Source of the DNA: Rhodococcus sp. WMMA185
GTDB taxonomy: Bacteria > Actinomycetota > Actinomycetes > Mycobacteriales > Mycobacteriaceae
NCBI RefSeq assembly: GCF_001767395.1
Contig: NZ_CP017014.1
Span: 4,171,012-4,235,011, forward strand
DNA length: 64,000 bases
Reading direction: 5' to 3'
This document shows positions 42,027 to 45,693 of the stretch, one piece after another. A program made the translations under genes and the position numbers. The notes beneath the pieces were generated by a model, which saw nothing but the letters and a program-made list of their open reading frames with translations, did no database searches and was not told the origin of the DNA. Position 1 is the first letter of the stretch; the number at the start of each line of letters is the position of its first letter.

Positions 42027-42800
42027 TCAGTGCAGGAACACTGTGTCGATCAATATGTACGTTGCGACAGCGAAGACAAGATATGCGAACCAGCGTTGAA
42101 GTCGGTCGGCGTCGATGCGGGTGCCGAAGTGGGCAGTGAGTAGTGACCCGACGATGGCGGTGCCGGCGAAGGCTACGGTGATCGCCCAGTCGATGCTTGC
42201 GCCACTCAGGTGCGAGATCAGTCCGGCGGCCGAGTTCACGACGATTATTACCAGCGACGTCCCGACGGCGATCTGTATCTGGACACCGAGCATCACTACC
42301 AGGGCGGGAATGATGAGGAAGCCGCCGCCAACGCCGAACAGTCCGGTCAGGAATCCCACTGCGAATCCGGCCGGAATCGAGCGGGGCGCGCACCGCCGCC
42401 AGTTGATTCCTGAATCGTCAGTCTTGCAGGCAGTTCCGATGCTGTCGCGGTCAAGCAGCATCCGGATACCCGCGACGACCATCACAGCGGCGAAGCCGAT
42501 CATGACTGCGGCCTGCGGCAGAAGTCGGCTCACCGCGCTCCCAGCGAAGGTGGCGGGGATACCTGCGGCGGCGAAGATTCCCACCAGCCGCCATTCGACC
42601 TGCCGAGCACGCAGTTTCGGGAGGGTGCCGACTGCTGAGGCGATGCCGACCACGAGCAGCGACATCGGTATCGCCTGTTCGATGCCGAGTCCGAGGCCGT
42701 AGACCAGAGCGGGGACGGCCAGGATGGATCCACCGCCGCCGAGCAGACCGAGCAAAATTCCAATGACTGCGCCGAGGGTGAGGGCGACTGTGAGGGTCAC
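42027..42800 (-). CDS. TauE/SafE family sulfite/sulfur-compound exporter
   Basis: The 257-residue protein has about eight membrane spans and the repeated family motif GLLGGGGSILAVPALVYGLG and GLFGVGGGFLIIPALV. Members export sulfite, sulfoacetate or related anions. GTG 42800 has AAGGAAG just upstream; a longer frame to 42878 lacks this. It is the last gene of a unit headed by a CstR-like repressor, and in the Staphylococcus cst locus a TauE homologue has the same partner genes. Confidence 0.88.
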   Translation of the reverse strand: MTLTVALTLGAVIGILLGLLGGGGSILAVPALVYGLGLGIEQAIPMSLLVVGIASAVGTLPKLRARQVEWRLVGIFAAAGIPATFAGSAVSRLLPQAAVMIGFAAVMVVAGIRMLLDRDSIGTACKTDDSGINWRRCAPRSIPAGFAVGFLTGLFGVGGGFLIIPALVVMLGVQIQIAVGTSLVIIVVNSAAGLISHLSGASIDWAITVAFAGTAIVGSLLTAHFGTRIDADRLQRWFAYLVFAVATYILIDTVFLH

Positions 42801-43033: not shown

Positions 43034-43402
<369 letters not shown>

Positions 43403-43447: not shown

Positions 43448-43762
43448 TCACGTCTGGCCACCGGCTTCCAGCGGCCTGCCCAATGCGGCCCATCCAGAGG
43501 TGCCGCCGGCAACCGAGACTGCCGTTCGGCCAGCGGCTTCAACAATGCGTGCTCCCTGCACGCTCCGGTTGCCGGACGCGCAGATCACGTAGACCACGTC
43601 CCCGTCGGAGATGTCCGCGGTTCGGCTATCCAACTGGCCGAGCGGTATCAGCACCGCGCCGGGGACGTGCCCGGTGGCGTACTCCCACGGTTCGCGCACA
43701 TCGATGATGGGAACGCCGTCGGCCCAGTTCTCGGCAAATTGGTCGAGGTCTATCTCACGCAT
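43448..43762 (-). CDS. Single-domain rhodanese (sulfurtransferase)
   Basis: A 104-residue rhodanese domain with the active Cys61 in VICASGNRS and the start IDVREPWEYATGHVPGAVLIPL. It carries sulfane sulfur as a Cys persulfide and would pass it between partners in the cytoplasm. ATG 43762 is preferred; a TTG two codons upstream is possible. It lies between the Cys-rich small protein and the repressor, in the same direction as both, consistent with a cst-like operon. Confidence 0.9.
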   Translation of the reverse strand: MREIDLDQFAENWADGVPIIDVREPWEYATGHVPGAVLIPLGQLDSRTADISDGDVVYVICASGNRSVQGARIVEAAGRTAVSVAGGTSGWAALGRPLEAGGQT

Positions 43763-43841
43763 ACCCAATCTCTCTATCAGTCGTTCTATTCAGACCCGTC
43801 TACCTGTGTAGGTGGCGATGCACCCGTAGCCTGTCGGTAGA

Positions 43842-44012
43842 TCAAGATCCGAAGAGCGCGCGGAAGAACCCCGGCTTCGCCGGTGGGGCGGATTCCTTGT
43901 CGCATGTGCACCGCTCGGAGGCGGGCACGGATCTCATGACGCCGTCGGCGTGTTGGCCGCATCCGCCCCAGGTCGTTTTTGCGCATTGCGAGCAGGTCGT
44001 GGGATAACACAT
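43842..44012 (-). CDS. 56-aa Cys-rich protein of the persulfide island
   Basis: A short gene with an excellent AGGAGAG site seven bases before ATG 44012. The protein begins MCYPTTCSQCAKTTWGGCGQ, continues with His21 and ERCTCDKE (two more Cys), and ends with a Pro-rich tail and FFRALFGS. It has six Cys, five of them in CxxC-like or CxC spacing, which suggests zinc binding or persulfide carriage. I do not know a function. It lies 114 bases after the dioxygenase stop and 79 bases before the rhodanese start, on the same strand. Confidence 0.82.
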   Translation of the reverse strand: MCYPTTCSQCAKTTWGGCGQHADGVMRSVPASERCTCDKESAPPAKPGFFRALFGS

Positions 44013-44126
44013 GATCATCTCTCCTAGCAGTTCTGTTCGTTTGTCCGGCTACAGGTTTCACGGATTCCTTCGACGAGGTGGCGATGCTCTGTCGTCTGAC
44101 CGCTACTGCGCCTTCGCCGTGTTACG

Positions 44127-45509
44127 TCACGAGCCGAGAATCTTGTGCGCAGCCCATTCGTCGTAGCCGCCGACGAGGTCGCTGACCTGCTCAAATCCTC
44201 GAGCACGCAACAGCGACGCGGCGACGCTGGAACGCCACCCGCCGGCGCAATGCACCACGATCGGACGATCGTGGGGGAGATCATCGAGTCGGAAAAGCAT
44301 CTGCGCCAGCGGAATCGACACAGCACCCGGGATTACTCCGAACTCGCGCTCGGCTGGATTGCGGATATCGACGAGCATCACGGCCTCCGCAGCGAGCAAC
44401 CGATCCAGTTCCGCGGCTGTGACCCTCGGCGAGGTTTGCATGAGGTCAGCCAGTTCTGCAGGAAAGGCACCATCGACGTCCACGGTCAGGTAGCCCTCCG
44501 CGTGATCGGAGCCGATGCGCGCGAGCCGCATCGCCGCATCCTGCTCCTGCCCAGGGTAAGTGATCAGCAAGATCCTCTCCCCGATCTGGGCGACCATGCC
44601 CCCGGTCTCGGCGAACCGGCCGTCGAATCCGACGTTGACCGACCCCTTCAGGTGTCCGTCGGCGAAGTCGTCTGGGGTACGGGCATCAAGCACCCGAGTA
44701 CCGGAAGCGAGTTCGGTGCGCAGTTGCGCCGCGGACACTGCGGGGATATGGCGGTGTTGGTCGAGCAAGGGATGAGTGGCCTTGTTCAGGGCCGCGTCGA
44801 CGGAGAAGTACGCGGGTACCGCGGGCTGCCCATCGGTGATCAGAGCGACGAACGCGTCCTCGCTCATCGGTTGCACGGACGGGTTGGTGCGGCGTTGCTC
44901 ACCGATGGTCGAGGTCAGCTCCGCCGACAGGTTCTTCCCGCAGGACGAGCCGGCGCCGTGCGCAGGCATCACCGTCACCGAATCAGGCAGGGTCAGCAGC
45001 GTCCGGTGGATGGTGTGATACATGGCTCGGGCCAGGTCGGTGTTGGAGCCATCACCGAGATTGACCAGGTCGGGGCGGCCCACATCGCCGATGAACAGCG
45101 AATCGCCGGTCAGTACGGCGGACGGGAGCGCCTGCGGTCGCTCGCGGACCAGCAGGCTGATCGACTCCCACGTGTGTCCTGGGGTCGACAAGATTCCGAT
45201 ATCGACCTCGCCGAGGCTGATGTGCTCGCCGTGCCGGAGTCGGCGGATCGGGTATTCGGTCTCGGCGGCCTCGCCGAATCCGATCCACGCGCCGGTCGCG
45301 TCGATCAGTTCCAGATGCCCGGAAACGAAATCTGCGTGGAAGTGAGTGTTGATCACTCCCTCGATGGTCAACCCGAATCGGCGGGCGTCGGCAAGGTACT
45401 CGGTGATGTCACGTCGCGGATCGACCACGACGGCACGTCCCGTGCTCTCGTCGCCGATCAAGTAGGACGCATGCGACAGGCACTCGATGTAGTACTGCTC
45501 GAGGATCAT
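44127..45509 (-). CDS. Persulfide dioxygenase-rhodanese fusion (CstB-like)
   Basis: The 460-residue protein has an ETHE1-type metallo-beta-lactamase domain (1-240; THFHAD at 55-60, His65, TPGHTWESISLL) followed by two rhodanese domains. The middle one has no active Cys (LLITYPGQE), and the last has Cys421 in VVHCAGGWRSS. This is the plan of S. aureus CstB, which oxidises persulfide to sulfite and makes thiosulfate. Two operators lie 50-90 bases upstream, so it should be induced by sulfane sulfur. The small Cys-rich gene and the rhodanese follow it. Confidence 0.93.
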   Translation of the reverse strand: MILEQYYIECLSHASYLIGDESTGRAVVVDPRRDITEYLADARRFGLTIEGVINTHFHADFVSGHLELIDATGAWIGFGEAAETEYPIRRLRHGEHISLGEVDIGILSTPGHTWESISLLVRERPQALPSAVLTGDSLFIGDVGRPDLVNLGDGSNTDLARAMYHTIHRTLLTLPDSVTVMPAHGAGSSCGKNLSAELTSTIGEQRRTNPSVQPMSEDAFVALITDGQPAVPAYFSVDAALNKATHPLLDQHRHIPAVSAAQLRTELASGTRVLDARTPDDFADGHLKGSVNVGFDGRFAETGGMVAQIGERILLITYPGQEQDAAMRLARIGSDHAEGYLTVDVDGAFPAELADLMQTSPRVTAAELDRLLAAEAVMLVDIRNPAEREFGVIPGAVSIPLAQMLFRLDDLPHDRPIVVHCAGGWRSSVAASLLRARGFEQVSDLVGGYDEWAAHKILGS

Positions 45510-45562: not shown

Positions 45563-45597
45563 ATACCCGTGGGGGTATGCAATTACCCCCGGGGGTA
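45563..45597. promoter_or_regulatory. Tandem CsoR/CstR-type operators before the dioxygenase gene
   Basis: ATACCCGTGGGGGTAT (45563-45578) is followed after five bases by TACCCCCGGGGGTA (45584-45597), a perfect palindrome. Both match the site before the repressor gene, which supports one regulon for the island. Confidence 0.85.
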
Positions 45598-45693
45598 TGT
45601 GACGGAACAGATAGAAGTTCACCGACCCGCGACCGAGCCGATGGGTTGCCCTCTCCGGGGGGCGGTTCGGCTCACAGGCCCCAATCCAGTCGG

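Follow-up and report, generated by a model that had tools for sequence, protein, structure and literature searches.

A nameless 56-residue Cys/His protein as a predicted small component of the sulfane-sulfur regulon of actinobacteria

The persulfide island of Rhodococcus sp. WMMA185 carries, between a dioxygenase gene and a rhodanese gene, a short open reading frame for a cysteine-rich protein. This raises the question of whether the frame is a gene at all and, if so, which part its product could play in the response to reactive sulfur. Here we report a computational analysis of this locus within a window of 64,000 nucleotides (contig NZ_CP017014.1, positions 4,171,012 to 4,235,011), to which the coordinates below refer. 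All together, the data lead us to propose, with a probability of roughly 0.6, that the product is a CstR-controlled Cys/His protein of the persulfide stress regulon, which adopts a metal-bound fold and handles sulfane sulfur.

The persulfide island and the company of the small gene

The small gene maps to positions 44012-43842 of the minus strand and occurs as a single copy in the 4.44-Mb genome. Its 56-residue translation, MCYPTTCSQCAKTTWGGCGQHADGVMRSVPASERCTCDKESAPPAKPGFFRALFGS, contains the six cysteines (positions 2, 7, 10, 18, 35 and 37) and the WGGCGQH core announced by the original prediction. The good ribosome-binding site that had been claimed is likewise present: a Shine-Dalgarno sequence, AGGAGAG, lies at 44019-44025 (minus strand), with its AGGAG (44025-44021) 8 nt ahead of the ATG at 44012. 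The open reading frame listing places the start two codons earlier, at 44018, from which AGGAG is just 2 nt away; because of this difference in spacing, and because the homologues begin at the second Met, we prefer the ATG at 44012.

All the genes of the island lie on the minus strand, in the order dioxygenase-rhodanese, small gene, rhodanese, CstR-type repressor and TauE. Specifically, the first gene of the operon (44127-45509) encodes a type-III persulfide dioxygenase-like protein, with a metallo-beta-lactamase and two rhodanese domains (Pfam PF00753 and PF00581), and ends 114 nt before the small gene. After a further gap of about 75-80 nt follows a single-domain rhodanese (43448-43768; PF00581), listed with a TTG start and having an alternative ATG at 43762, so that the position between dioxygenase and rhodanese stands as described. 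A simple scan of both gaps flanking the small gene detected no terminator on the minus strand. Further downstream are a CsoR-family repressor (43034-43303; PF02583), classified as CstR-type by comparison with the copper-type paralogue of the genome, and a TauE/SafE sulfite exporter (42027-42800; PF01925) with a tentative start codon.

The cst operon of Staphylococcus aureus, which consists of CstR, CstA, CstB, Sqr and TauE, has in common with the window a CstR-type repressor, a CstB-like dioxygenase-rhodanese and TauE; to our knowledge, no small Cys-rich gene belongs to it. The ScCsoR-ScPDO-rhodanese-TauE circuit of Streptomyces coelicolor brings together the four kinds of enzyme, regulator and transporter that are also present in the window, but its four genes include no small Cys-rich protein where the window has one between dioxygenase and rhodanese (PMC7533328). 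The small protein is therefore not essential to circuits of this kind.

Within the genus, presence of the small gene closely follows that of the dioxygenase. Among 28 genomes, 19 contain both a close type-III dioxygenase and the small gene, 8 contain neither, one contains the small gene only and none the dioxygenase only (Fisher p = 2.9e-6). The dioxygenase of the window is 73-82% identical to those of relatives in which the small gene adjoins, and at most same-genus loci the small gene comes closely after the dioxygenase; in R. jostii, genes for thioredoxin and for the carboxymuconolactone decarboxylase family separate the two. Two matches to the small gene that are split or contain stops were also observed beside a dioxygenase gene (G010:C1:3540959-3541116 and G011:C10:85600-85695); they are possibly decayed copies or sequencing errors, and both genomes have other, intact copies.

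The original prediction had suggested looking for the same short gene near CstB-like genes elsewhere, and indeed it adjoins CstB-like or CstR-type genes in many actinobacteria. When 144 neighbours from 44 diverse loci were scanned, the most frequent Pfam families were the rhodanese and the CsoR-family repressor (13 each). Over 80 homologue loci, a CsoR-family gene, nearly always without the copper-ligand His, is found within 3.5 kb of the small gene in 42, and an operator, a CsoR gene or a rhodanese gene is nearby in 66. The remaining 14 loci (L068, L105, L109, L111, L116-L118, L120, L121, L126, L129, L131, L137 and L140) belong to several other actinobacterial lineages and have assorted neighbours, which implies another control, or a broader function, of the small gene in those lineages; the family may thus have a broader or older role.

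Conserved residues and the putative metal site

Alignment of 89 distinct sequences showed that C2, C10, G17, C18, H21 and C35 are invariant and that C7 is changed once. Position 37 is a Cys in 68 sequences and a Gly in 21, all of which have a His further on, at a distance of one residue (19 sequences) or two residues (2), the last ligand position being either C37 or CxG(x)H. The conserved set of ligand-type residues thus comprises C2, C7, C10, C18, H21, C35 and C37 or His. Interchange of Cys and His being typical of metal ligands, the exchange at position 37 favours such a ligand there. The C-terminus is variable and frequently reads GFFxxLFGR. An AlphaFold model of two sequences (that of the window and its relative L031), of low confidence with a mean pLDDT of 62, displays a hairpin or turn at CxxC and a helix beginning at CGxH, an arrangement which is suggestive only. 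Judging from the residue pattern, we infer that the small protein binds a metal, with less certainty than attaches to its control by CstR discussed below; the Cys-to-His replacement and the low-confidence model speak for zinc. Least certain of all is an activity as sulfur acceptor or carrier.

A metal site is also what would be expected if the protein were an adaptor or regulator of the zinc-finger type with a purely structural role, binding the dioxygenase, the rhodanese, the repressor or nucleic acid without ever carrying sulfur. This explanation, which we consider possible and still hold to be doubtful, fits the invariant CxxC and CGxH together with the Cys-to-His exchange of the last ligand, and the short basic, aromatic tail GFFxxLFGR could serve for docking. 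Small treble-clef and zinc-ribbon proteins indeed combine a CxxC with a second Cys/His pair, one ligand being interchangeable between Cys and His, as in the small protein. Against it, known zinc-finger families match at chance level only: unlike those proteins, the small protein obtained no match above chance in Pfam, NCBIfam or PDB, profile searches included, and none among curated zinc-finger and zinc-ribbon profiles and solved structures. Moreover, the predicted fold is of low confidence.

The position of the gene between dioxygenase and rhodanese, its strong co-occurrence with the dioxygenase and the thioredoxin, TusA and DsrE genes found near it in R. jostii could instead point to a metal-free carrier of sulfane sulfur, transferring it in the manner of TusA from the rhodanese to the dioxygenase on a reactive Cys (for example, C18 in W-x-G-C-G-x-H). 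TusA-type carriers, too, are small, handle sulfur and have rhodanese genes in the vicinity of their own. However, the small protein has no sequence or profile match to TusA and differs in its Cys pattern, with several invariant cysteines and probable metal ligands in place of a single reactive Cys motif. The conservation of the other cysteines except C37, and of the His, and the replacement of C37 by His argue for a metal site over one reactive Cys. In addition, stand-alone copies sit amid unrelated genes. We therefore regard a metal-free carrier as unlikely.

Considering these data, we propose for the small protein a Zn/Cys mini-finger that would handle persulfide sulfur; it is probably a metal- or sulfur-binding helper of the reactive-sulfur stress response. 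More tentatively, the whole family of about 55 residues could be a dedicated zinc-thiolate acceptor or chaperone of sulfane sulfur, found widely among actinobacteria and subject to CstR control also where its gene stands alone, a proposal that we would not yet expect to hold. If true, it would add a new functional part to bacterial persulfide detoxification.

Operators and CstR-type regulators

The site of S. coelicolor ScCsoR is ATACC-N6-GGTAT (PMC7533328), and the predicted operators of the window fit it. Two exact occurrences are found in the window, both in the persulfide island, where 0.01 would be expected: ATACCCGTGGGGGTAT (45563-45578), upstream of the dioxygenase, and ATACCCCCACGGGTAT (43338-43353), upstream of the CstR-type repressor. 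A third site, TTACCCCCGGGGGTAT (45583-45598), again upstream of the dioxygenase, departs slightly from this consensus. An operator of the ScCsoR kind is therefore present before the operon of the small gene. A pattern search for TACCC-N4-GGGTA over the entire genome returned seven sites, of which three belong to this island, three to a second CstR-type gene and one lies elsewhere. That second gene (L157, 4322-6953; G000:C1:3538321-3540953), encoding another His-less CstR-type regulator, has an MMPL-like transporter and a DUF302-like protein as neighbours, and possibly represents a second sulfane-sulfur-type regulon of the same genome.

The homologue loci were searched with the CsoR/CstR-type pattern TACCC-N3-5-GGGTA. 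A predicted operator was found within 150 bp upstream of the small gene in 28 of the 80 loci, and 31 more have one between -2700 and +1500, commonly at about -1500, where it mostly precedes the dioxygenase as first gene of the operon; 21 loci have none in this interval. The background amounts to 13 sites in 753 kb, binomial tails computed from it overstating the significance because of phylogenetic dependence among the 80 loci. At six loci of actinobacterial lineages outside the order (L138, L141-L144 and L128), only 6-7 bp separate the operator centre from the small gene's start codon downstream, and a repressor bound to this site would therefore overlie the start or a leaderless promoter.

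Several copies of the small gene located amid unrelated genes also bear the operator. In genomes with such stand-alone, operator-bearing copies, a His-less CstR-type regulator was found in 8 of 8 tested, compared to 1 of 12 (L181) among genomes in which the small gene lacks an operator (p = 7e-5, for a small, author-chosen sample and with kinship ignored). In one of the genomes, G311, the locus in trans also includes a dioxygenase, 49% identical to that of the window.

The window itself contains a His-less, two-Cys CsoR-family regulator: the repressor at 43034-43303 has two cysteines 29 residues apart and a Gly in place of the His of copper CsoRs. This CstR pattern makes less likely the earlier suggestion that the small protein is the sensor partner, as the equivalent regulator of S. 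coelicolor detects sulfane sulfur without any small partner (PMC7533328). Since the CstR-type protein can sense through cysteines of its own, we set this reading aside.

CsoR-family operators are common to copper CsoRs, and the pattern does occur at some copper-type CsoR loci; the operator alone is therefore no proof of persulfide control. With six cysteines in 56 residues, the small protein could then be a metallothionein-like protein responding to copper or another metal under a CsoR-family regulator, and not to persulfide. This appears improbable, considering that 43 of the 44 neighbouring regulators are devoid of the copper-ligand His, that copper ATPases are absent from the commonest neighbour families and that genomes with only a copper-type CsoR have operator-less small genes. 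Furthermore, the copper-type CsoR of this genome, which lies beside copper ATPases, has no TACCC-N4-GGGTA within the 9 kb examined.

In conclusion, the operators, found also at stand-alone copies, and the genomic association strongly support, on comparative sequence grounds, that this conserved and nameless small protein belongs to the sulfane-sulfur regulon of actinobacteria. S. coelicolor ScCsoR serves as the analogy from which we infer both the binding of CstR to these operators and their induction by persulfide. Accepting our preferred reading of a CstR-controlled Cys/His protein, the CstR-type repressor would shut the operon of dioxygenase, small protein and rhodanese, as well as its own gene, via TACCC-N4-GGGTA sites, and modification of its cysteines by sulfane sulfur would release it from them. 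The small protein would then be produced along with the persulfide dioxygenase, the rhodanese and the sulfite exporter, and would fold round a metal, probably zinc, through CxxC (7, 10), CGxH (18, 21), C35 and C37 or a nearby His. Under persulfide stress its thiolates could accept, buffer or relay sulfane sulfur, or could shield a metal-thiol site.

In the sulfane-sulfur circuits described so far, a sensor is combined with oxidising enzymes, a rhodanese and an exporter. The small protein, accompanying every close dioxygenase in the genus genomes searched and predicted to belong to the regulon on its own elsewhere, suggests that one component has so far been missing, and offers a way to test whether bacteria hold or relay reactive sulfur on a metal-thiolate protein.

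Homologues, selection and annotation

Homology searches identified relatives of the small protein in 34 of 61 related genomes, in 49 of a phylum-wide sample of 396 genomes and in 78 plasmid records, where every organism listed is an actinobacterium; there are dozens of homologues, with E values as low as 1e-26. The median dN/dS is 0.25 (50 pairs for which it could be computed), and substitutions by codon position (538/359/930 over 53 pairs) are in excess at the third position, the pairs being in both cases not independent. A Shine-Dalgarno-like motif lies ahead of 76 of the 89 copies. The homologues, the purifying selection and the conserved context place the small gene far beyond chance, and from the substitution pattern we conclude that it is a real gene under purifying selection. 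That it is a chance frame without a product, as its shortness and the missing annotation in most plasmid records might suggest, has a negligible probability in view of the family-wide conservation, the dN/dS and the frequent ribosome-binding-site-like motifs.

The view that the gene is too short for many gene finders holds in part: most plasmid records show no feature there, in a gene table that is incomplete, whereas RefSeq calls a 'hypothetical protein' in several, the only name given by the records that annotate it. With 56 residues and no family name, the protein is easily missed. The open-access literature searched contained no text on the core motif, nor on CsoR and persulfide together with small Cys-rich proteins.

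A single-sequence scan of genome contigs yielded one true relative, L031; a second candidate, L032, was rejected as a longer unrelated protein with only a short motif in common. Among 247 Bacteroidota genomes there was one weak match only (E 1.8e-4), which we discounted since its DNA, by eye, resembles the zinc region of a PriA-type helicase. The viral contigs searched contained no relative. Finally, a homologue of the small gene was observed in MT835623.1 (L160), an unannotated, 'unverified' phage record labelled 'Bacteriophage sp.' from human faeces, which may be a mislabelled actinobacterial contig.
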